From: Biomaibacter acetigenes
Lineage (GTDB): Bacteria; Bacillota; Thermosediminibacteria; Thermosediminibacterales; Tepidanaerobacteraceae
Assembly (NCBI RefSeq): GCF_003691585.1
Contig: NZ_CP033169.1
Coordinates: 2,852,001-2,916,000 of the forward strand
Direction of reading: 5' to 3'
DNA: 64,000 nucleotides
The notes beneath the pieces are model-generated. The model had not been told where the DNA came from. It searched no databases and saw only the letters and a program-made list of their open reading frames with translations. This document shows positions 4,684-59,480 of this stretch, one piece after another; the first letter of the stretch is position 1, and each line of letters starts with the position of its first letter. The position numbers were made by a program, and so were the translations under genes.

Positions 4684-5316
4684 ATGAATATGAATGAAGC
4701 TACAACATCCGAAAGGATTATCGACTGCGCCCTTGAACTATTCAAGCAGAAGGGCTTCGATAATGTAACCGTAAACGATATTTGCGATGCAGCAAACATA
4801 ACAAAGGGGACCTTTTATTATCATTTTAAATCAAAAGATGATTTGCTGGGAAAATTCTACACAAAGGTATATGATTTAAACAAGCAGAGCATTTCACGCC
4901 TGCTGTCTACAACCAATTTCTGGGAGCAAGTATGGATCATAGTAGGCGACTATGTGGATTATACTATCCAATACGGTCATGGAATCTTAAAGCAGGTGTT
5001 CAAGGCAAATTTAAATGAAAACAGAGGGACTTTTTCTTTATAAGATAGCTTCGTGCCGCAGCTGTTGCTTACTATAATCAAAAAAGCTCAAGAAGCCGGC
5101 CATGTCCATAATCAGTCCTCTCCTGAAAGCCTATATGAAGCCGCTTGCCATATTGTAATTGGAATTGCAGTGTTGTGGTGCATACATAATGGCGGTTTTG
5201 ATGAGAAGTCTATTATACTAAGTAATTTAGAGGCACTCTTTGATGTGCCGCCCGAATTCAGTCTGATTAATACAGGGAAAAGTAAAAGCACAGGACCTTC
5301 AAGTCAAATCGAATAA
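4684..5316 (+). pseudogene. TetR/AcrR regulator with in-frame stop
   Basis: The N-terminal helix-turn-helix is typical of TetR: ERIIDCALELFKQKGFDNVTV, then DICDAANITKGTFYYHFKSKDDLL. Translation from ATG 4684 (GGAGG upstream) meets a TAA at 5041-5043. The same frame then continues without further stops to 5316, and the downstream part (QLLLTIIKKAQEAG) reads as the rest of a TetR ligand domain, giving about 210 codons in all. A single nonsense change therefore splits it. It faces the decayed oxidoreductase gene, which it probably controlled. A truncated DNA-binding domain could still be made. Confidence 0.85.
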
Positions 5317-10249: not shown

Positions 10250-10393
10250 GGCCTTACCCCCCTCAAGATGCAATTGAAGCCTCTCCGTGCTAACTTAAAT
10301 CTCTACTTATTGCCCTAATCTAAATATAACAAACCGTTATTCTTCATAAAAGATCTTATTTCCTTATAAGATTATTCCCTTTTTCACTTAATT

Positions 10394-10744
10394 AATGGAA
10401 AAACTTTTTTCCCCTTACGGAACGACTTTATTTTTCATGGAAAAACTTCAGCAAAAAACAATTCCCAAACTTGATCCTTTTCCCTTTTTTCCTTGCCCCT
10501 AACTATGTTAATTTAAAAAAAACCTTTCTATTTCTGTTCCCGCAAACCCGCATAAAATAAGCATGGGATTTTCTGGGAGGTAATATAGTTTTTCCGTAAG
10601 GCAGTATTAAAATACCTATAATTTTCCAAATACTGCTCAAATTTGTGTGAAAAAAGTTGTTCCAAAAGGGAAGGATCATGGTTCAAGGAAAAAAGGGATA
10701 AGTGATGTCAGGCTTCTAATTTCAAGGCCTTTCACTTATCCCTT
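10394..10744. repeat. Tn7-like end unit E0a (incomplete)
   Basis: Three packed direct sites (GGAAAAACTTTTTT, GGAACGACTTTATT, GGAAAAACTTCAGC) lie at 10394-10456. They are followed by a pyrimidine tract, CCCTAACTA, and a TGTTAAT terminus at 10506. Inverted copies of the site are then spaced out near 10579 and 10646. A 14-bp perfect stem (AAAGGGATAAGTGA with its complement) spans 10693-10745. No right-hand packed array follows before the next gene, so this copy may be truncated. Positions 10490-10745 are a direct repeat of 11050-11300. Confidence 0.6.
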
Positions 10745-10821
10745 TCCTTATTCCTTTACCCTTTATCCTTATCCCTCCATCTATCCTTTCCCTTTATTCC
10801 TCCCCAAAACGCTTAGTGTTT

Positions 10822-10998
10822 TCATAACTTTGCTAACTCCTTAAGAGCCTCTTTATTTTCACTGATAACAGAATCCATAAGCGTTTCAATCTCTTTCTGC
10901 TCTTTTGCTTTTACAAATTCAACAAAGTCAATAACTTCCTTTTTCCTTTCTTCAGTCAACTGCTCAAATTCTTTGATTAATTTTTCTGCCAGTGTCAT
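10822..10998 (-). CDS. DUF2281-like small protein (58 aa)
   Basis: A 58-residue charged helical protein (MTLAEKLIKEFEQLTEERKKE, then VIDFVEFVKAKEQ) resembles DUF2281 proteins, which often accompany PIN-domain toxins as antitoxins. The start has GAGGTG eight bases upstream. No PIN or other toxin gene is adjacent, so it is an orphan here. It lies between two copies of the non-coding end unit (E0a and E0b), as if carried as cargo. The function is uncertain. Confidence 0.6.
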   Translation of the reverse strand: MTLAEKLIKEFEQLTEERKKEVIDFVEFVKAKEQKEIETLMDSVISENKEALKELAKL

Positions 10999-11059
10999 AT
11001 AATACACCTCGCTAACGATTATTTCAATAAAATTATACCACAAATAAAACATATATTAT

Positions 11060-11401
11060 TGTTAATTTAAAAAAACCCTTTCCCTTCCCCATCCCTCCAC
11101 CCCGCATAAAATCTACATGGGATTTTATGGGAGGTAATAAAGTTTTTCTGGGAAGCAGTATTATTTTTTCTATTCTTTTCCAAATACTGATCTAATTTGT
11201 GTGAAAAAAGTTGTTCCAAAGGAACAGGATCATAGTTTAAGGAAAAAAGGGATAAGTGGCTTCAGTCCTGAATTTCTCAAGACCTTTCACTTATCCCTTT
11301 TCTATTCTTGGGGCAATTATTCCTTCATCATTTTCCAATTTCTCCACTCATACGGAATCTCTTTTTTCGCTTGGGGAAGAGGTTTTTTTCATAGATACAC
11401 A
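11060..11401. repeat. Tn7-like end unit E0b
   Basis: A left terminus TGTTAATTTAAAAAAACCC begins at 11060. Spaced inverted sites follow near 11134 (GGTAATAAAGTTTTTCTGGG) and 11206 (GAAAAAAGTTGTTCCAAAGG). A 14-bp stem formed by AAAAGGGATAAGTG and its complement spans about 11246-11300. Packed sites end in a TAGATACACA terminus at 11401. It is 342 bp long and non-coding. It repeats most of E0a. Confidence 0.6.
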
Positions 11402-15025: not shown

Positions 15026-15215
15026 TTATAATGGTCTTTCTGGTCTATTCCGACAAAATTGACAACTAGGGTCACTGCACTTTCCTTCTGTCCATATATT
15101 GCAAAAAGCACAAAAGAATGCATCATATCTATCATAGTGAATCAAAAATTTATTACATCTTTTACACCTTTCATCACTTATAAAACCTTCAATCTTTTTA
15201 TCATCAATAAAAACT
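15026..15215 (-). pseudogene. Zinc-ribbon protein tail cut by IS21
   Basis: A frame reading VFIDDKKIEGFISDERCKRC and on to SCQFCRNRPERPL, with paired CxxC motifs (CKRC, CAFC, CSDPSC, CQFC), ends at TAA 15026-15028. Its 5' side stops at the IS21 left end (15217), so the gene start was probably lost or displaced by the insertion. A stem-loop (AAAGACAG/CTGTCTTT) at about 14999-15026 lies just past the stop. Confidence 0.55.
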
Positions 15216-15408
15216 GTGTATTCCGGTCAATTTGGACATCGATTCCGGTTCAAACTGGACAGTGATTCCGATTTAAACTGGACACCCGTTCCGGTTTAAA
15301 CTGGACGGTAATTCCGGTACAAACTGGACAGTGTCGGAGCGAAGCGACGAGGACTTTTCGATTTTAAGTCTAACACATTTTACACAATATTCAATAGTTG
15401 TTTTTTTG

Positions 15409-16158
15409 TCAAATACTTTGATCAGGTGTTTGAGCTTTTAGTTTTCTCATTGACTCACCTTTTATGGATATTTTGTATGCATTGTGTACCAGGCGATCCA
15501 GTATAGCATCAGCCAGTGTAGGGTCGGTAAGGATCTGGTTCCAATGGTCTACCGGAAGTTGACTGGCGATGATGGTGGACCGCTGCTGGTTGCGGTCCTC
15601 CACCACTTCGAGTAACTCCCTGCTTTCAGCAGATGTAAAAGAATTTAACCCCCAGTCATCCAAAATCAGCAGTTGTATTTTCTTTAAGTCACTGAGGAAT
15701 TTGGAGTATGTGCCATCCCCTTTAGCTATGACCAGCTCTTCCAGTAACCGTGACACCCGATAGTATCTAGTGCTGTAGCCTATTCTGCAGGCAATATTCC
15801 CTAATGCACAGGATAGATAGGTCTTTCCAACGCCGGTGGGTCCGGAAATTAAAACATTCTGGTGCTGCTGGAGCCATTCTCCTGTTGAAAGGCGGGCAAT
15901 GAGCTTGCGATCCAGGTTCCGGGGACAGTTGTAATCGATATCTTCTATGCAGGCAGGAATACGAAGATGAGCCTGCTTGAGTAAACGCTGCAAGTGACGG
16001 TTTCTTCTGGCTCTCCATTCGTATTCCACCAGGAGACTGAATCTTTCTTCAAAGGACAGCTCCAGGATAGATGGCTGCTCCTGCTGTCTGCGGTAGGCTT
16101 CCAGCATGTCCTTTAACCTCATATCAGCAAGCTGGTCCAGGGTTTGCTGCTTTAACAT
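15409..16158 (-). CDS. istB: IS21 helper ATPase IstB
   Basis: A full-length (249-residue) DnaC-like AAA+ ATPase that assists IS21 transposition. It shows Walker A in ISGPTGVGKTYLS near residue 100, Walker B in LLILDDWGLNSF near residue 165, and an arginine-finger region (DAILDRLVHNA) near the C-terminus. It begins one base past the istA stop, the usual translationally linked arrangement. This gene appears intact although its partner istA is not, so the element can move only if IstA is supplied in trans or the stop is read through. Confidence 0.9.
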   Translation of the reverse strand: MLKQQTLDQLADMRLKDMLEAYRRQQEQPSILELSFEERFSLLVEYEWRARRNRHLQRLLKQAHLRIPACIEDIDYNCPRNLDRKLIARLSTGEWLQQHQNVLISGPTGVGKTYLSCALGNIACRIGYSTRYYRVSRLLEELVIAKGDGTYSKFLSDLKKIQLLILDDWGLNSFTSAESRELLEVVEDRNQQRSTIIASQLPVDHWNQILTDPTLADAILDRLVHNAYKISIKGESMRKLKAQTPDQSI

Positions 16159-16159
16159 A

Positions 16160-17707
16160 TCAGTTCACCCCCTTGCTGTAGTACTCTATTCCACGGATAT
16201 TGTCATGGACCATAGGGGGAGGTGAGGATTCTGTTTCCAGGGGCAGTTGATCAAGGCCTTTTTCCAGGATGGACAGTATGCTCCTGTAGGAGATGGCTCC
16301 ACAGGATAGAGCACGGGAAGCGGCTTTCTCCACGCTTTCTTTGGTGTATTTCTCAGAAAGCCGGATAATACCCATACAGGCCCGGTATGCCTGCTCCGGA
16401 TGTTCTTTCCTCTCCATAAGGGCCTCCACCAGGAGGGCGGTATTCTTCCCTACAGCTTTAGACCAGTTTATGATCCGCGCCGGTGTCCATTCCCAAACCT
16501 TTTGATGACTCGGTGGCATGTGCTCCTGTAATGTAGTGTATGCGTGCTTTTTCCCGAATTGTCGGATATGGGTGGCTACTCGTTTGTTCTTGTAGAAAAT
16601 CTCAACAGTCTTTGCAGTAATCCTTACATCCACCTGCTGTCTTACCAGTTGATAGGGTACACTATAGTAATTGCCATCTACCTCAATATGATAATCGATG
16701 TTCACTCGCGCGTACTTCCATACGGCATACTCATAAGGCTGTAGCGGTAAGGGTTTTAGGGCGGGCTTTTCCAGGGTTTCATAAAGGGAGCGCCTGGAGC
16801 CTTCCATCTTCTCGAAGGGTTTATTGTTGATAACCTCCAGTTCCTTCCGTATGGCCTTGTTTAAATCATAGAGGCAGAAGAAGGTTTGATTTCGTAATTT
16901 AGCCATAATCCAGCGCTCTACAATCAGTACTCCGTTTTCTGCCAGGGGTTTGTCCTTAGGTTTTCTTACCCGAGCCGGAATGATTACAGTACCATAGTGG
17001 GTAGCCATGTCCAGATAGGTGGGGTGGATCTCCGGTTCATAGTAACAAGGCTTCTTGACACCGGTCTTTAGGTTATCAGGCACAATAATCTCCGTGACTC
17101 CTTGAAACTATTCAAACATATGGATATGGACATTGATCCAGGATTCGAGTTCCTGGGAGCACGCAGCTTCGGCGTAGAGTAGGTCACTGGCCCCCAAAGC
17201 ACCAACAAAGATATATGCATCCTTACACTCACCAGTGGTTCTATCAACAACTTTCATAGTGGGGCCTGCCCAATCTACAAAGGTCTTTTCTCCTACCCGG
17301 TGAATCTGGTGCATGGAGATATTTCTGGATTTACGCCAGCGAAGATAATAGTCACAAAATTGACTATACATGAGGCCATCGGGATATTGCTCCTTATACT
17401 CCTGCCACAGAAGCTGCAGGGTTACTCCCTTGCGTTTCAGTTCCCGGTGGATAAAATCCATATCGGGCAGGGGCTTTTTACTGCTTGTAATCTCTTGGGG
17501 ATACAATCGGGATTCTAACTCGGCATCATCTATGGTCTTTATCTCTGGCCAGGGTGGCAGGTCTGTATTCTTGTACCGTTCGATGATAGCAGTTACTGTT
17601 GTAGGGGAGCAGTTGCAGCTTTTGGCAATCTGGCGGTTACTTAGATTGCCTTCGTGGACTAGTCTTAGAATTTCTCGTACATTACGCATATTCATCCTCC
17701 TATTCAT
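16160..17707 (-). pseudogene. istA: IS21 transposase IstA with amber stop
   Basis: The N-terminal helix-turn-helix (LSNRQIAKSCNCSPTTVTAI) and the first catalytic Asp (FVDWAGPTMKV) are in the first segment. Translation stops at TAG 17108-17110 inside HMFE*FQGVTEIIVPDNLKTG. The same frame continues to 16160 and carries the second Asp (PDNLKTG) and the Glu (KPLAENGVLIVERWI). The stop most likely replaces a Tyr codon. Joined, the protein is about 515 residues, normal for IstA. A single substitution is therefore the only visible lesion, and it is probably recent. Confidence 0.9.
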
Positions 17708-17980
17708 GTTCGTATTCCCTCCTCGCTAAAGGTTTCCAGATAAAGATTAGCGAGGTTAATCGAAAATTCCTTTTGCGCTTGCTACGAACATGAAAGGGAA
17801 TGTTCTTTTTCCCAAACCTGTGTTCAGTTTGGGCCGGAATCAGTGTCCACTTTCAGCCGGAATGCCTGTCCATTTTGGACCGGAATTGGTGTTCACTTTC
17901 CACCGGAATGAGTGTCCATTTTGGACCGGAACCGGTGTCCAGTTTGCTCCGGAATATACATCTTGTATCAAGAAATATAA

Positions 17981-18042
17981 AATTTCAGAACTTTATTTTC
18001 TTTTTAATACTACTTTACCCTTTATAAAAGGACTTTTCTGTT
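17981..18042. repeat. Packed 20-bp site array P1
   Basis: Three sites (CAGAACTTTATTTTCTT, ATACTACTTTACCC, AAAGGACTTTTCTG) follow each other every 20 bp just outside the IS21 right end. The array ends CTTTTCTGTTTCT, as does the array at 19518-19580. It is a relative of the packed arrays in the E units, without the rest of a unit. Confidence 0.5.
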
Positions 18043-18077
18043 TCTTAAATTTTTAATTATTATGTATTGAACTGTTC

Positions 18078-18637
18078 AACACAACTTTATTATCTATTTG
18101 ACACGACTTTATTATTTCTAACACGAGTTTTTTATCTCTGACACAACTTTTTTATTTTTCCCATTATCCCTTAACCCTTTTTAGAATAAAACTTAGTCCT
18201 AACTATGTATACACATAAAAAACTCATGTCAAAACCCAACACCCCTCAAACCCTTGTCCCTTCTTGCCTTAACCCTATTTTTCTAATTCTTTCTATATAA
18301 AAAAGTCATGTCAAAAATCACCCATTTCCCTTATCCCTATCTCCTTTTTTCTTCCTATTTTCAGCCTCATTTTAGATAAAAAAGTCGTGTCAAAAGTAAG
18401 GATAAATAGGGATAAGTTTCAAGGGAAAAGGGGAAAGTTTAATCAATATCTTTCATCAATACACCATTCAAATCCAATAAAATCAATACTTTTACCCTTA
18501 TTCCTTTCTCCTTGAGCCTAAAAAAGCCATGCAGCAATTCAGGATTTCTCCTGCATTTACAGCATGACTTTTAACATGACTTTTTTATTTTTGATACGAC
18601 TTTATTATTCGTGACACGAGTTTTTTAGGGTTATACA
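18078..18637. repeat. Tn7-like end unit E1
   Basis: Four packed sites, 20-22 bp apart with core ACACGACTTTATTATT, lie at 18078-18160. Next are a pyrimidine tract, CCTAACTA, and a TGTATAC terminus at 18206. Three inverted sites follow, spaced 70-90 bp apart (AAAAAACTCATGTC 18217-18230, AAAAGTCATGTC 18301-18312, AAAAAGTCGTGTC 18379-18391), then a purine-rich stretch. A hairpin (CATGC/GCATG with inner CAGGA/TCCTG) lies near 18528-18566. Three more packed sites end at a TTATACA terminus at 18637. All sites in this unit share the TGACAC/GTGTCA half, unlike the other units. It is non-coding. Confidence 0.65.
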
Positions 18638-18726
18638 ACTATAATTATCAAGACTTATGGATATGAAGCAATTAAAAACCATTAAATAACTCCATTCGCA
18701 CTGCCATATGAAATCCACTCAATTCA

Positions 18727-19386
18727 TCAGATGTCTTTTTGCAAAATTTTAAATAAATCTACTATTTTATCAGGCTTATGATTAGAGTATATTTTTTTAG
18801 CATCTCCATTACTATCTTCAACATTTAGTGTAATTGTTTTTTTGCCCTGTTCTATTTCTTTTTGAATTCCCTGCATTGTATTTTCTCTAAAAAAATTCTT
18901 ATTTTTATCCTTATTTTTGTCTTTGCTAATGGGATATCGAAAATAATCACTTACACTATCATACCCATTTATTTTGTTTATCCATTTTTCAAATTCATCA
19001 TTAAATTTCCATATTGTTGTAGTATTTTTACTCAAATAATCCTTATTACTTTTAATAAGAAAATTAAGATAAATATATAAATCCTTTATGTTATGCGTAG
19101 TCTTCAATAATATCCAAGTTCCATTATTAAGTTTTATTTTCGGTTCTCCATTATATTTGTCATTATCAAAATTTAGTTTGAATTTTTTATGAAACAGAAT
19201 GATACCTGATTTTAAAAATAGTTCTATGCAGTGTCTTCTTAAAAAATTAACTGGTAGAACTGAATACCAATCTTCTCTAAAATTCTCTGAACTACACAAA
19301 TCATTGGCTGCTGCATAATATATAGAACCAATCATTTCATACCCATAGTCAGGGTGTTCCTCCAAAGGCATAAAATAATAGTTCAT
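18727..19386 (-). CDS. Hypothetical protein, possibly HEPN-like
   Basis: This 219-residue soluble protein is lysine-rich. The phrases LPVNFLRRHCIELFLKSGI and KTTHNIKDLYIYLNFL resemble the paired helices of HEPN-type proteins (R-x4-E-L-x-L-K followed by a TH-x-x-LY helix), but the match is weak and no R-x4-H motif is present. The start is the ATG with GGAGG seven bases upstream. It is flanked by the non-coding units E1 and P2/E3 and has no gene partner, looking like single-gene cargo. Confidence 0.45.
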   Translation of the reverse strand: MNYYFMPLEEHPDYGYEMIGSIYYAAANDLCSSENFREDWYSVLPVNFLRRHCIELFLKSGIILFHKKFKLNFDNDKYNGEPKIKLNNGTWILLKTTHNIKDLYIYLNFLIKSNKDYLSKNTTTIWKFNDEFEKWINKINGYDSVSDYFRYPISKDKNKDKNKNFFRENTMQGIQKEIEQGKKTITLNVEDSNGDAKKIYSNHKPDKIVDLFKILQKDI

Positions 19387-19517
19387 ATTCATTCCTCCAA
19401 CATTAAATACTTACAGTTAATTTATCATCCTATATACATCATACATTAAATTCCATTTACAAAATATCTTATAGGCTTTTGTCTTCAATTCTTATGCTAG
19501 AAGCATAATTATTTTTA

Positions 19518-19580
19518 CTTACAACTTTATTTCCATTTTAATAGAACTTTCCTTGTAATGAAAGTACTTTTCTGTTTCTA
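19518..19580. repeat. Packed 20-bp site array P2
   Basis: Three sites at 20-bp spacing (TTACAACTTTATTTCC, ATAGAACTTTCCTTG, GAAAGTACTTTTCTG) end with CTTTTCTGTTTCT, matching array P1 at 17981. About 30 bp beyond, an inverted copy (GAAACAGAAAAAATGG) occurs. It looks like a degraded partial unit. Confidence 0.45.
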
Positions 19581-19750
19581 AAATTTTTCGTCCATATCAT
19601 TTTTGGAAACAGAAAAAATGGGCAATGTTATATATAAAAAGTAAATAATGTTCTTTCATAAATTTCCTTTAATCTCCATATGCCTTTAATCCTAAAATTG
19701 AACTAAACCCTGTATTCTCAATACTTTCCCTTGTTCCTTATACCTTTCAA

Positions 19751-20301
19751 TATCACAACTTTATTTTATTTTTGAAACGACTAATTAAACCCTATTTTCT
19801 TCTCAAATCATTTCCTATTTCCCTTACCCCTTTTTCCTTAATCCCAACTATGTATAATCAAAATAAAATCACAACAAAATTCAAATAAAGTCCTTTCACT
19901 AACAGCCCTCAAACCCTTGAAAACATTGGCTTGTTATTATCTTCCGATTTCCCATTTAATTCCTATTTCCTTATTCCTCACTTCCTAAAGTCCTTGCATT
20001 TGCGCGATTTTAGGGTAAAAAATGAAAATAAAGTTCTTTTAGGTAAAAGAGTTAAGGGGAAAGGATTAAGGGAAGTTTTTATCCATTTCCCCTTCCATTT
20101 TCTTTTCCATTTAATCTTCTAATCCGTTGATTTTTCTGGGGTTAAGGCTTGTCTCTCTTTTCTATTTTAATGAGAATTTCTGATAAAAAAACATGGCTTA
20201 ACCGAGATTCCTTATCCCTTTTAAACCATGTTTCCTCCAAGAACTTTATTTTCTTCATAGAAATAATTTGCAAAATGAAAGGAGTTTATTTGGGTTATAC
20301 A
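19751..20301. repeat. Tn7-like end unit E3
   Basis: A packed site (ATCACAACTTTATTTT, 19752-19767) and a degenerate second copy are followed by a pyrimidine tract, CCCAACTA and a TGTATAATC terminus at 19851. Inverted sites follow at about 19880 (CAAATAAAGTCCTTTC) and 20021 (GAAAATAAAGTTCTTTT). A strong stem (AAGGGGAAA with its complement) spans about 20052-20095. Packed sites from 20237 end in GGGTTATACA at 20301. It shares GCCCTCAAACCCTTGA with E1 and E2. It is non-coding. Confidence 0.6.
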
Positions 20302-20403
20302 TATATACAGGGATAAGGGCTATGGGCTAAGGTACAAATAAAAACTACTTAATATATGAATTTTCTAGAGATTTTCTGAAATATAATATGTAGTTTGAAA
20401 AAT

Positions 20404-21147
20404 TTATTTATATAGGTTCTTATACCAACTGTCTTTTCTCTCTCGTTTTATTTCAACACTGTCATTTTCAATGGAGTCACCAACTTGATATGCCCATACC
20501 TCAACATCATCAAGTAAACCTTCATATCTTTTTATAAACGTTTCTACCAGGCTTTCGCCTTTTTTATTAAAATCATCTTGGAAAACAATAATTTTTCTAT
20601 CAGCAATTATTCTGGATAAATAAAAAATTGCCTCAATTGCCGTTGATATTTTCGCAGAAGGAAAATTATCATCTTTTGTCCATGTATAACTTTTACATTC
20701 TACCACAATAGAATTATCTGATGATACTAAATCAAACTTGTGAACTTTATTAATACCTACAATTAATGGCTTTTCACGGAAACTATCACTAAAAATACGA
20801 TTTAAATATAAACCCACTCTATTTTCGAAAGCATCATAGAGAAGTCTTGTAAAAGCACGATTGTTATTATTATATAAATCTAAATAGTTATTTTTTAAAG
20901 TTGTTTCTGAATCTAATACACTCTTATTACTATATGTATCAGTAATACGATTTATTAATTTATCCTTCTTGCAATATGAACATTCATCTTTATACCGATT
21001 TATTGTGCCTTGCTTATATAATTTATTACATATGACATAAATAGTTTGACGTGGCTCAATCCCTAGTAATTTTGATAAGCAATCATCACAAAAGGACTTA
21101 TTTCTACTATATAGAAAATCTATAATTTTTTCACTATGCTTACTCAT
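20404..21147 (-). CDS. Predicted PD-(D/E)XK nuclease-like protein
   Basis: The 247-residue protein has two parts. The N-terminal 90 residues look like a winged helix, with paired cysteines (CDDC near residue 20 and CSYCKKDK near residue 60) that could bind zinc. The C-terminal part has KVHKFDLVSSDNSIVVECKSY, a D...ExK arrangement typical of the restriction-endonuclease-like fold. The start follows GGGGG. It lies on the right of E3, with two more minus-strand genes upstream. A cargo defence nuclease is the likeliest reading; no partner methylase is present. Confidence 0.6.
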   Translation of the reverse strand: MSKHSEKIIDFLYSRNKSFCDDCLSKLLGIEPRQTIYVICNKLYKQGTINRYKDECSYCKKDKLINRITDTYSNKSVLDSETTLKNNYLDLYNNNNRAFTRLLYDAFENRVGLYLNRIFSDSFREKPLIVGINKVHKFDLVSSDNSIVVECKSYTWTKDDNFPSAKISTAIEAIFYLSRIIADRKIIVFQDDFNKKGESLVETFIKRYEGLLDDVEVWAYQVGDSIENDSVEIKRERKDSWYKNLYK

Positions 21148-21301
21148 TTTATACCCCCTTAGCATGTTGTTGCTACTCCATATACCATATCTCTATTTCC
21201 TTTTATTACTGTAAAAGTTTCTATAATAATCTTTAAATTCTTTTAAAACTTTAGTCCATTTAATGAGCCTTTCACCTAAATAATTAGGCTTTATACTCCA
21301 T

Positions 21302-21781
21302 TCAATCTAATAATACATACTCTTTACCCTCTTCATCAATACAAATCTCATCATTATATCCATTTTCTTTTAGATAATCAAAAAAATACTGTCTCTTTAA
21401 CCCTCTTCTTCCTATAGTAAACTTTCCGTAATTTCTTATCTCAATAAGATTGTTGTCTTCATATACTCTTGTATTAAAAGACTTTGAGAAGTAATATGGC
21501 AGATTTACCTCCAGAATCTGTCCTAAAGTGTTGTTACTATCCCCTGGTAATGTAGTTAAAATACCACATCTATTGATTTCACCTGTTGATGCATTACACC
21601 ATTCTACTGTTGAAGCCCAAATAATATCCTCTTTATCTTTAATTTCATAGACATCAAGTTCTTCCAGGGAGCCAGATGGGTTTCCCCACTTTCTTTGCCC
21701 TATCCTTTTAAAGTTTGCTAACCCAATTTCTAAAACATGAAATATCTCTCTTGTTCTTTCTTCATTATCAACCTTATTCAT
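21302..21781 (-). CDS. Hypothetical protein (159 aa)
   Basis: The sequence is soluble, with no membrane segment, and is not recognised. It has an acidic C-terminus (ENGYNDEICIDEEGKEYVLLD). The start has AAAGGAG upstream, and its first eight bases overlap the end of the TnsD-like fragment, so the two are translationally linked. Genes coupled to TnsD-like genes are often transposon cargo or accessory factors, but nothing in this protein points to a function. Confidence 0.5.
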   Translation of the reverse strand: MNKVDNEERTREIFHVLEIGLANFKRIGQRKWGNPSGSLEELDVYEIKDKEDIIWASTVEWCNASTGEINRCGILTTLPGDSNNTLGQILEVNLPYYFSKSFNTRVYEDNNLIEIRNYGKFTIGRRGLKRQYFFDYLKENGYNDEICIDEEGKEYVLLD

Positions 21782-22349
21782 TTATATCTCCTTTCACATT
21801 TAGTATTTCCTGTAAAAAGTTGTAACCATATCCTTTTCCATTCAAGAATCCTTTTATATCCTTTGAAATAAATTTCATATACCTTGGCTTAACTCCTGCT
21901 GTTTCTGCCAAATTCCATAATGTCATCGGTTTCCCTTGCTTCTCTAGTTCATCTATAGCCCATTTGATTTTTCTAATGTGAAATTCTTCCATACTTTCAA
22001 TTGTAGACTCTATATATGCCTTAGTCAACGGTAGTTTTTCTCTCTTTTTAGAAAGCCACCCACTAATCCCTAATTTGCTCCCTATAGTTGTCCAAGTTAT
22101 CCGCTCAGGCTTGCCTTCTTTCATTTCTCTTACTACTTCTTTTACTTGTGAAAGCAATTCAGCATCTCTTTTAGCCCAATCAACACTATTAACTTTTGTT
22201 TTTATCCTGCGATAGTTTTGTTTCAGCCATTCACTATCATATCTTTTCAGCCATGTATATAGTCCATCATTTTTTCTTCTTATCTGGTTGCTGCTTATAT
22301 CGGCATATTGAACATGAAGTTTAAGCCATTTTTTATAACATATCATCAT
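21774..22349 (-). pseudogene. tnsD: TnsD (Tn7 target selector) C-terminal fragment
   Basis: The 191 residues match the C-terminal region of TnsD-type proteins. They read GLYTWLKRYDSEWLKQN, then VDWAKRDAELLSQVKE, then PERITWTTIGSKLG, then KLPLTKAYIESTIES and EFHIRKIKWAI. Full TnsD proteins run to about 500 residues and begin with a TniQ zinc domain, which is absent. The sequence immediately upstream enters the E2 unit, and no good ribosome binding site is present. TnsD directs Tn7 to the end of glmS, and this fragment lies 0.7 kb from the glmS 3' end. I call it a remnant, though a short protein could still be expressed. Confidence 0.75.
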
Positions 22350-22394
22350 TGCACTTATTGTTCTGTTCCTTATCCCACCTTGTTTCCCCTTCTT

Positions 22395-23055
22395 AGAACT
22401 AACTTTATTCCAATAGAGCCAACTTTATTATTATAGAACTGACTTTATTTTCACAGAATCACCTTTATTATTTTATTGCCTCTCCCTTATTCCTTATCCC
22501 AAAAATCCTTACCCCTAACTATGTATATTTAAAATAAACTCCACTCCACCCACACCCCTCAAACCCTTGATTTTCCTATATCCTAATTTCTACCAGATAA
22601 TAAAGTCCACTCTAAAATTCCTTAATTTCATCCCACTTATTAACACTTTTTCCTTAATCCTTGTAGTAATTTTTAAAATAAAGTCGGTTCTTTTTAGCAG
22701 CAAATTAAAAGGAAAATAGGGATAAGTTTCATGGGTTAAGAGTTAAGGTGTACATATTTTCAATCCATCTTTTCAATCGATATATCAATATTTTAATCAA
22801 TATAATAATCAATGCTTCTCTCAATCCTTTTAAAATCAATACTTTCAAGACTGTAATCAGCACAATATTCTAATCAAAATTCTAATGAAAAATCAAATTC
22901 CTTAACCCTTACACCTTACCCCTCTCCCCCTACCAAAAAGCAAACCCCGCAGCAAATCAGGAGTCAGCCTGCATCTACTGCGAGGTTTTGGAACGAACTT
23001 TATTTTTACAGAGCGAAGTTTATTATTATGGAGTGGAGTTTATTTTGTATATACA
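22395..23055. repeat. Tn7-like end unit E2, abutting attTn7
   Basis: Four packed sites, exactly 20 bp apart (AGAACTAACTTTATT, AGAGCCAACTTTATT, AGAACTGACTTTATT, AGAATCACCTTTATT), fill 22395-22474. A pyrimidine tract and CCTAACTA lead to a TGTATATTT terminus at 22522. Inverted sites lie at 22531-22546 (AAATAAACTCCACTCC), 22593-22613 (ATAATAAAGTCCACTCT) and 22671-22691 (AAAATAAAGTCGGTTCT). A hairpin (CGCAG/CTGCG with inner CAGG/CCTG) spans about 22948-22982. Three packed sites, again 20 bp apart, fill 22990-23049 and end in TGTATATACA at 23055. It is non-coding apart from repeated AATCAAT-type stretches at 22780-22900. Confidence 0.7.
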
Positions 23056-23082
23056 ATCCCCTTTTTATTTCTTATGCCTTTA
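23056..23082 (-). other. attTn7-type insertion position after glmS
   Basis: The outer terminus of E2 ends 24 bp beyond the glmS stop codon (TAA, 23080-23082). Tn7 inserts at about this distance from glmS, with a 5-bp duplication. The flanking pentamer here is ATCCC on the plus strand; I did not find its partner copy. Confidence 0.65.
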
Positions 23083-24909
23083 CTCCACCGTCACGCTTTT
23101 TGCAAGGTTCCGTGGCTTGTCGACGTCGCAACCGCGGGCGACGGCGGCGTAGTATGCCAGAAGCTGCATGGGTATTACCGCCAGGATAGGGGTGAGGATG
23201 GGATGGGTCTTGGGGATGTAGATGACGTCATCCACAGATTTTTTGATCTCCTCATTTCCTTCATTAGCTAGAGCCACCACAAATCCTTCTCGAGCCTTTA
23301 CTTCTTTGATGTTGCTCAGAGTTTTTTCAAAGAGGTGTTCCTGGGTGACCGGTGCGATCACAGGGACACCTTCTTCTATAAGGGCCAGAGTGCCGTGCTT
23401 TAGCTCTCCGGCGGCATAGGCTTCGGCATGGATGTAGGATATCTCTTTGAGCTTCAGGGCCCCTTCCAGAGAAAGGGGATAGTCGAGACCCCTGCCGATA
23501 TAGAATACATCTTCCCTATCGAAGAACTTTTGAGCGAGAGATTTTATTTTATCCTCATGGCCCAGTATGATTTTTGCCTGGTCAGGTAAGTTTTTCATGG
23601 CAGAGGTTATTTCCTGAAAATCCTTTTCGCAAATGCGGCCAAGGGTCCTGGCTATATATAATGCTATGAAATCCAGCGCAATGAGCTGGGTGCTGTAAGC
23701 TTTGGTAGAAGCTACGGCTATCTCGGGGCCGGCCCAGGTGTAGATGATATCGTCGGCTTCTCTGGAAACGGAGCTTCCCACCACGTTGGTGATGGCCAGC
23801 ACCCTTGCCCCCAGTTTTTTGGACTCCCGGAGAGCCGCCAGGGTATCGGCAGTTTCTCCGGACTGGCTTATGATGATGACCAGTGTATTTTTATCTATCA
23901 TTGGATCCCGGTAACGAAACTCCGATGCGATATCCACCTCTACGGGGACCCTGGTGAGCTTTTCTATTACATATTTTCCGACCATCCCCGCGTGGTAGGC
24001 GGTACCGCAGGCCACAATGAAAATCTTCTTGATGCCTTGAAGATATTCTTTGCTAAGATGCACATCATCCAGCTTTATCTCGCCTTTTTCCGGTAAAATT
24101 CTTCCTGCCATGGTATCTTTAAAGGCTTTAGGCTGTTCGTGGATTTCCTTGAGCATGAAGTGGGGGTATCCGCCCTTTTCAGCTGCCACCGCATCCCACT
24201 TTACTTCAAATATGGACTTTGCTACAGGATTTCCTTCGAAGTCGGTCACTTCCACTTTGTCTTTCGTGATCTTCACCATCTCGCCGTCTTCCAGAATATA
24301 TACTTTGCGGGTATGCTGCAGTATGGCCGGAATATCCGATGCAATGAAGTTTTCCCCTTCGCCGAGGCCGGCGATGAGGGGGCTGGATTTACGGGCGGCC
24401 ACTATGGTTCCGGGCTCCCGCCTGGAGATGACACCCAGTGCAAAAGAGCCTTCCAGCTTGCTTATGGTCTTTTTCATCGTCTCAAAGAGGTCTCCGTCAT
24501 AGAAATGCTCAATCATATGGGGCACCACTTCGGTATCGGTTTCCGATTTGAAAACATGGCCTTCCGACTGCAGCCATTCCTTCAACTCCTGATAATTCTC
24601 GATGATGCCGTTGTGTACAACGATGAAATCCCCGGTGCAATCAGTATGGGGATGGGCATTCACATTCGAAGGCCTGCCGTGGGTTGCCCAGCGAGTGTGG
24701 CCGATGCCCACATGCCCTTCAGGGTATGCGCCGCCGAGCTTTTCCTCCAGCACTTTTATCTTACCTTCAGTTTTTATGAGATTGGTGCAGCAACAATTGT
24801 GTATGGCAATACCCGCCGAATCGTAACCTCTATATTCAAGCCTTTTCAGGCCGTCCAGCAAAATAGGAGCTGCCTGTTTATCTCCAACGTAACCAACTAT
24901 TCCACACAT
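23080..24909 (-). CDS. glmS: Glutamine-fructose-6-phosphate aminotransferase
   Basis: GlmS converts fructose-6-phosphate and glutamine into glucosamine-6-phosphate, the first step to UDP-GlcNAc for cell wall. The 609-residue protein begins MCGIVGYVGDKQA, whose Cys2 is the catalytic nucleophile once the Met is removed. The N-terminal glutaminase has GHTRWATHGRPS and VVHNGIIENY. Two SIS domains follow (VACGTAYHAG, ISQSGETADT, and the C-terminal AVARGCDVDKPRNLAKSVTVE). Longer in-frame readings run into the ribozyme and are rejected. It is the last gene of the cdaA-cdaR-glmM-glmS block. The end of the gene is the probable docking site for Tn7-like elements. Confidence 0.97.
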   Translation of the reverse strand: MCGIVGYVGDKQAAPILLDGLKRLEYRGYDSAGIAIHNCCCTNLIKTEGKIKVLEEKLGGAYPEGHVGIGHTRWATHGRPSNVNAHPHTDCTGDFIVVHNGIIENYQELKEWLQSEGHVFKSETDTEVVPHMIEHFYDGDLFETMKKTISKLEGSFALGVISRREPGTIVAARKSSPLIAGLGEGENFIASDIPAILQHTRKVYILEDGEMVKITKDKVEVTDFEGNPVAKSIFEVKWDAVAAEKGGYPHFMLKEIHEQPKAFKDTMAGRILPEKGEIKLDDVHLSKEYLQGIKKIFIVACGTAYHAGMVGKYVIEKLTRVPVEVDIASEFRYRDPMIDKNTLVIIISQSGETADTLAALRESKKLGARVLAITNVVGSSVSREADDIIYTWAGPEIAVASTKAYSTQLIALDFIALYIARTLGRICEKDFQEITSAMKNLPDQAKIILGHEDKIKSLAQKFFDREDVFYIGRGLDYPLSLEGALKLKEISYIHAEAYAAGELKHGTLALIEEGVPVIAPVTQEHLFEKTLSNIKEVKAREGFVVALANEGNEEIKKSVDDVIYIPKTHPILTPILAVIPMQLLAYYAAVARGCDVDKPRNLAKSVTVE

Positions 24910-25059
24910 AATCTTTTCCTGCCTTTCTTGTGATGTTGTCAAGGTTCGCGGCATTTTTGGCAAAAATCCATTACGGGGCATAAAACCGCATAATAGGATT
25001 TTGCAGCAAAATGCCCATGTATATACAATATCCACAATAATACAACCTGTTATTCCTGC

Positions 25060-25207
25060 CGAAATCCCTTTGTGCCGGCGATCACTCGCCGGTTTTGTGG
25101 ACCTCTGTCGGTGGCAGGCCACCGTGGGGCATCCGCCGAATTCTTCGATAAACCCCAACCTCGTCAGCTTACCATCCATTCTCCGGGCGATGGCAAGCTC
25201 TGGCGCT
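25060..25207 (-). ncRNA. glmS ribozyme/riboswitch
   Basis: The minus strand carries the conserved core in order: GCGCCAGAGC at the 5' end, then GACGAGGTTGGGGTTTATCG, then TTCGGCGGATGCCCCACGG, and a downstream GGCGAGTGATCGCCGG hairpin followed by GCACAAAGGGA. Self-cleavage, stimulated by glucosamine-6-phosphate, should occur 5' of the first G (between 25207 and 25206). It lies about 150 nt before the glmS start and gives feedback control by destabilising the message. Confidence 0.97.
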
Positions 25208-25212
25208 TTTCT

Positions 25213-25247
25213 CGAAGTTCGATGTTCGAAATTCGATGTTCGAACAT
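25213..25247. repeat. TTCGA-rich tandem palindromic repeat
   Basis: GTTCGATGTTCGAA is repeated almost perfectly (ATTCGATGTTCGAAC) just upstream of the ribozyme cleavage site. A related sequence (TTCGAGGTTCGAAGTTAG) overlaps the 3' end of aspA near 32817. It is probably a dispersed short repeat. Confidence 0.55.
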
Positions 25248-25449
25248 TACCTTCAAACATGGTAAAATAACTATTCGTTGTCTAAACTATCAAGCCTCCT
25301 TTATCATTTGTTTTATGCTTTGCTATCTTTTTCCATCACCCCCTTCAAAGATACTCTTAATCTAAAACGAAGGTAAAAGCCTTTTTTAATCAAATACGCA
25401 GCCGATAGATTTTTAATGCCGAGCGCATTGTGGAGCCTATTAGAAGCTC

Positions 25450-58884: not shown

Positions 58885-59480
58885 GGGTATTTACCTTCTT
58901 CCATTATTCCAGCTATTAAGAATCTCTTTATTAGTCGGACGAAGTTTTTGTTTCCTGTTGGATAGCACAGGAATTTCATCATCCATTAATGGTCGACGTT
59001 GTCAAAGAATCCTCTGATGTCTGTATCTACTACGAAGTTGGTTTTGTCGGCCATATTCCTTCTGATAGAGCCAACAGAGTCTCCCGGGTTACCTTGTTAG
59101 GGCAATATCCAGCGTGTCAAGGTCTCCGACCACGGGAAAGCTAAGACAGTCTTATCATCCCGATTGTTCTAGTATTACACTTTCTAGCAGCATCGACCTT
59201 CACGTTTGGTGATTTCGTGGACCACTCTCTTCAAATTTCGCTTTCGGTCCGCTGTATCGCTGTCCTACGCTTATATCCCAGCAGTTGCCTGGCACACTCC
59301 AAAGACTAGTTGTTAGCTGTTGGTTAGACATTACTAGATGAATATTTCACTCACTATCTATACACTGCCTTGCCCGGTAGCAGCAACGGCCCGGCACCAA
59401 ACCGTTCAACTTACCGCTATAAAGTCAACCTGCATTTCGCATGGTACCTTTAGCCGTTGCATGCTACTTTTATGACTTTC
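58885..59480 (-). mobile_element. Group II intron relic (LtrA fragment and RNA part)
   Basis: On the minus strand 58890-59075 reads as pieces of a group II intron reverse transcriptase, KTNFVVDTDIRGFFDNVDH, then a stop, then FVRLIKRFLIAGIMEEGKY. The 400 bases upstream of it (59080-59480) have the structured, GC-balanced look of the ribozyme part that lies before the ORF in such introns. Most of the coding sequence and any domain V/VI are missing. It separates the DeoC-like gene from the FGGY kinase. Confidence 0.65.

Follow-up and report, generated by a model that had tools for sequence, protein, structure and literature searches.

Stacked arrays of type-specific TnsB-like sites beside glmS in Biomaibacter acetigenes: probable relics of Tn7-like transposons

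The window analysed here is a 64,000-nucleotide stretch of the Biomaibacter acetigenes genome (contig NZ_CP033169.1, positions 2,852,001 to 2,916,000 of the forward strand). Three units of short repeated sites lie beside the 3′ end of glmS, and a fourth site type (type 0, GGAAC/GGAAAA) occurs at 10390-11399, outside the range of the original prediction (Table 1). Each unit is organised around a module that opens with a TGT terminus, closes with an ACA terminus and holds in between three spaced inverted sites, then a hairpin, then a tight right array. The sequence to the left of each module has a pyrimidine tract that ends in AACTA and, further left, another tight array. The middle module lies between CAACTA (left) and TATATACAGGGATAAGGG (right), which are both of the inner flanks of the intact elements described below. 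The TnsD fragment shares 72-78% identity with TnsD of two other genomes (G003 and G010). At 15210-17958 lies an element of the IS21 family whose ends carry multiple inverted 23-bp repeats; its IstB is intact and its IstA is apparently split (ORFs 16160-17083 and 17108-17707). An RNA feature was ruled out for the units, as the Rfam matches were limited to the glmS ribozyme and a group II intron, the latter a minus-strand match to the D1D4-6 family at 59120-59345.

Table 1. Features of the window bearing on the repeat units; positions count from the first nucleotide of the window.
Feature	Position	Strand	Details
Type-0 left array	10396..10455	+	GGAAAA/GGAACG
Type-0 module	10506..10810	+	truncated
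Second type-0 module	11060..11399	+	no left array
Inner D array left of unit 1	17987..18054	+	3 TnsB-like sites, 20 bp apart, with the middle unit's half (AAAGGACTTT)
Unit 1 left array	18078..18156	+	4 tight sites 20-22 bp apart, AACACA/GACACG/AACACG/GACACA
Unit 1 end module, type 1	18206..18637	+	left terminus TGTATACACA, hairpin, right terminus TTATACA
Unit 1 module, 3 spaced inverted sites	18214-18230, 18296-18312, 18375-18391
Unit 1 module, tight right array	18573-18629
Inner D array of middle unit, type 2	19521..19590	+
Middle unit left array	19752..19791	+	2 sites, as in intact type-2 elements
Middle unit end module, type 2	19851..20301	+
ORF like the cargo gene beside the left module of the C. 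homopropionicum type-2 element	20404..21165	-	translations inspected
TnsD C-terminal fragment	21774..22349	-	PF15978, E=1.7e-28
Unit 3 left array	22396..22472	+	4 tight sites, GAACTA/GAGCCA/GAACTG/GAATCA
Unit 3 end module, type 3	22522..23055	+	right terminus TATACA
glmS	23080..25260	-	3′ end is the attTn7 target
glmS ribozyme	25052-25218		Rfam

Sites were picked on the shared 11-bp half alone, with at most one mismatch to A[CG]TTT[AT]TT[AT]TT, and the adjoining 6 bp upstream were compared. Units 1 and 3 each hold nine such sites, against 1.0-1.2 in dinucleotide shuffles; the count is weaker for the middle unit (4 against 1.6), which has few clean sites. The adjoining 6-mers are GACACG/AACACA/GACATG in unit 1 (18078-18637), GAAAGG/AAAAGA/CCAAGA in the middle unit (19752-20301) and GAACxx/GAGCxx/GAGTGG in unit 3 (22396-23055). 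The motifs named in the original prediction thus exist, but from left to right its second set (AGAAC/GAGTG) belongs to the third unit and its third (GAAAG) to the middle one. Its central claims, that one half of the site is private to the unit and the other common to all, were borne out. Identity of the private half is 0.667 within units and 0.374 between them, a difference reached by 0 of 20,000 label permutations, and the gap for the common half is far smaller (0.836 vs 0.789). As had also been proposed, all three site groups of a unit (left array, spaced inverted sites, right array) carry the same kind of private half. The spacers between sites are likewise more similar within units (0.509 vs 0.322), as might be expected if the private half reflected local homogenisation by tandem duplication, unconnected to transposase specificity. 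That explanation has little probability, since the half recurs in all three site groups of a unit and also in other genera, where same-type units match as well as the sites of a single unit do.

This recurrence was measured over 19 units from the B. acetigenes genome and other genomes. Same-type units in other genera score 0.660, compared to 0.658 inside one unit and 0.355 for other types (0 of 5,000 unit-label permutations); because types had been assigned beforehand from terminus and site sequence, these values show that the types are coherent and are not an independent discovery of them. The private half thus marks the type and not the single unit. As the same code is found in other genera, it belongs to the element lineage, and homogenisation within units fails as its sole cause. 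Intact elements with different TnsB lineages bear different private halves: GGAAC/GGAAAA for the element of G301, GAAAGG/GATAGG for those of Herbinix and C. homopropionicum, GAACAA for G088 and CGAGCAA for G012. In the G012 code (CGAGCAAACTTTGTC), part of the common half is altered too. Coherence within a unit does not always hold, given two hybrid modules: one of G116 joins type-1 left sites to a type-3 right array (L162, 7914-8347), and one of G019 joins a type-0 left half to a type-3 right half (L058, C45, 3266-3740). These modules show that types can exchange the left or right half of a module by recombination.

The units have the anatomy of Tn7-like ends. Their arrays of about 20-bp TnsB-type sites are few and spaced at the left end and tight at the right end. 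The termini are of the TGT...ACA kind (TGTATATTT...TATATACA). The last base of the unit 3 right terminus is 23055; this is 25 bp from the stop of glmS and corresponds to the attTn7 position. Five intact relatives have outer 5-bp target duplications (CTTAT, GCAAA, CAAGT, ATAAC and TCTCT); the elements of the window are fused. The full tnsABCD set is found in intact relatives and is represented in the window by the TnsD fragment alone. Since, in addition, no TnsB was detected in the B. acetigenes genome, the units are relics. The three units and the fourth type are probably worn remains of different Tn7-like transposons, stacked serially at attTn7 beside glmS. A search of the genome with the TnsA and TniQ Pfam families gave no match, but its controls were equally empty and it is not counted as evidence. 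No match to units 1 and 3 was found on plasmids. We also considered whether the left array might be what is left of an older element, namely its right end, with a newer element directly beside it; this was ruled out, because the pyrimidine tract and CTAACTA that separate the array from the left terminus are conserved in four types.

Co-evolution of the private half with the transposase, as originally suggested, agrees with a half that tracks the lineage and with the TnsB-site anatomy; the TnsB paralogues that it called for are absent, no TnsB having been detected in the genome, and hybrids occur. In intact relatives the TnsB N-termini diverge. Between TnsB of different types (Herbinix, G301, G116), the catalytic core is 67-83% identical and the first 120 residues 33-54%; for G301 and G116 against Herbinix the values are 67-70% and 33-47%. 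This comparison is suggestive and agrees with divergent DNA-binding domains; it is a soft test and not proof, because the first 120 residues are also the fastest-drifting and least conserved part within type 2. We infer that TnsB may recognise the private half as a lineage-specific contact.

The same types are found at glmS in other members of the family and order: G007 has type 1, in a module like that of unit 1 adjoining the gene, G001 has type 3, and G013-G017 and others have type 0. In G008, left ends of three types are present, one nested in another. In G010 and G019, type 2 is located at the 3′ end of recR, and type-2 elements with tnsABCD in C. homopropionicum, Lutispora, Haloimpatiens and Herbinix have their right ends at recR. 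An intact element at the rpsI 3′ end was found in G012 (contig 6, 17133-41827; L062, L181), with Asp114 of its TnsA altered. Solo modules without a left array occur at or near glmS in G001, G007, G013 and G016; that of G007 is flanked by ACAAT or CAAT, with a one-base ambiguity. In G001 (C48, 32376-59782; L012/L013/L029), cargo including GajA/GajB and a BREX set (BrxL, PglZ, PglX, BrxC) lies between type-0 left modules and the type-3 module on the glmS side, in a region that also holds a full TnsD and a truncated TnsB.

In intact relatives a noncoding module of about 340-530 bp, in which the left end and right end stand together, is present as a direct repeat at both boundaries. The original view of each unit as one coherent element does not stand, as a unit is an end module with neighbouring inner arrays and intact elements extend over tens of kb. 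The two modules of an element are 98.6-100% identical in seven of nine elements and 86-90% in the other two (Lutispora, 90%; Haloimpatiens, 86%; each pair on separate contigs). They match at 461/461 positions in C. homopropionicum (about 54.6 kb between CTTAT duplications), 450/450 in Herbinix (GCAAA), 462/462 in G012 (TCTCT) and 431/431 in Mobilitalea. Near-identical repeats can be collapsed in short-read assemblies, from which some of the modules come; three genomes are single-contig, namely G301 (type 0, 31.7 kb, 341/342, ATAAC), G116 (434/434) and G088 (a 1179-bp repeat, 100%). In G116 the repeat continues for about 1 kb outside the module and reaches into a gene, suggesting that homologous recombination brought about the integration there. 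The termini have a short inverted extension in the inner flanks, which read AACTA to the left of the right module and TAGTT/TAGAT to the right of the left module. The modules might instead be independent non-autonomous mini-elements landed by full transposons with other ends, and solo modules at glmS and elsewhere would be natural products of this. We regard it as very improbable: the two modules of an element are identical or almost identical and lie within a single target duplication, which is a strong counterargument, and the stretch from module to tns genes showed no further ends.

Inside the right end, intact elements carry the left array and up to three further D arrays; in type-2 elements these D arrays are comparable to those of the window. 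The left and D arrays may be operators or target-immunity sites and not parts of transposon ends, to which we give somewhat less than even odds. They stand just upstream of leftward genes, in up to three copies, and a TnsB-like site by a promoter-like sequence upstream of tnsA (L091, about 4880-4915; same place in L089 and L092) suggests autoregulation. This possibility covers the left and D arrays only and is compatible with the reading of the modules as transposon ends.

The TnsA proteins of these elements were numbered by alignment to the solved Tn7 TnsA (1f1z), whose Glu63, Asp114 and Lys132 we take to be the catalytic residues. Asp114 is replaced by Ser or Thr in 9/9 elements of one clade (support 82/90) and Glu63 by Gln in seven of these; Lys132 is retained. 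All eight outgroup TnsAs retain Glu, Asp and Lys. The nine relatives thus lack the complete catalytic triad that characterises the cut-and-paste Tn7 subgroup; no TnsA is encoded in the window. We infer that TnsA is probably inactive in the clade. Identical repeats were predicted from TnsA alone and then found in G012 and Mobilitalea, G012 being the cleaner test because two equal Mobilitalea matches 39 kb apart had already been listed. Provided that the other element end lies within the fetched stretch, TnsA-intact controls differ: no comparable repeats occur in 65-80 kb for G128, G084, G261, G180 and G332, and for G154 the 100 kb covered contain just one pair, 262 bp long and 85% identical, on either side of the tns genes. 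As the altered elements form one clade, the match between TnsA alteration and identical repeats is a single evolutionary contrast. The outer target duplications are those of a simple insertion, and we considered that the whole element, from module to module, moves by cut-and-paste with TnsA rescued or active, the modules having been duplicated otherwise and kept alike by gene conversion. Gene conversion could indeed maintain module identity, and the modules of Lutispora and Haloimpatiens, 10-14% apart, show that identity is not obligatory. This scheme nevertheless appears unlikely given the loss of Asp114 in every element of the clade and modules 100% identical over 431-462 bp in four elements of species about 20% apart.

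The explanation that we prefer, at a probability of roughly 0.6, combines stacked relics, lineage-specific TnsB sites, integration of a circle by cointegration and solo modules arising through recombination. In this model, the 20-bp repeat would be a TnsB-binding site, its shared half a conserved contact and its private half the lineage's own specificity, so that the arrays of one element carry one code. With TnsA inactive, TnsB would nick and join 3′ ends only; a circle of one module with tns and cargo genes would then integrate whole by replicative cointegration, at a site picked by TnsD (glmS or recR, or rpsI in one element). A circular donor and cointegration are conjectured from the arrangement of the modules. 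This would place the body between two identical modules, with a 5-bp target duplication around the whole. Through homologous recombination of the modules the body would be lost and a solo module left, and the middle unit, with both inner flanks, fits such a junction. Later elements would insert beside the target gene, displacing older ones outward. The more specific joint reading, of a clade with dead TnsA that uses cointegration as an integrase, with modules acting like attL and attR, exit as a circle plus solo module and a diversification of TnsB specificity through one half-site that allows several such elements to stack at one target, stands at about even odds.

The relatives share with E. 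coli Tn7 the glmS target 25 bp from the stop, TGT...ACA termini, the 5-bp duplication, tnsABCD order, three spaced left sites and tight right sites. However, Tn7 has one left and one right end, here joined in a module at both boundaries, and its TnsA is active in cut-and-paste, unlike that of the relatives without Asp114. The intact relatives look like an unusual Tn7 branch without the second DNA-cutting activity. For Tn5053/Tn402 and type V-K CAST, which lack tnsA, replicative cointegrates are expected or shown; they duplicate the whole element, some with a resolvase, whereas the relatives keep an altered tnsA and hold their tns genes outside the duplicated left-right pair. In Benler et al. 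2021 (PMC8649781), replicative transposition is inferred only for branches without tnsA. The TnsA D90A mutant of a V. cholerae element gives >95% cointegrates, with the order mini-transposon, backbone, mini-transposon (PMC8188705), a similar product from a laboratory mutation, whereas the change in the relatives is natural and common to the clade. LTR retroelements and solo LTRs offer an analogy only: they have identical direct terminal repeats and solo-repeat remnants, but the relatives are DNA transposons, without reverse transcription. The arrangement was not found in the literature searched, which consisted of open-licence papers.

A natural series of TnsB-site specificities, with one half variable and the other constant, would be useful for understanding how TnsB reads transposon ends and for orthogonal transposases. 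If the model is true, the calling of element boundaries changes, each intact element having two left and two right ends. The relatives suggest that a Tn7-like lineage gave up cut-and-paste, kept the TnsA protein and made the usually harmful cointegrate its normal integrated state.
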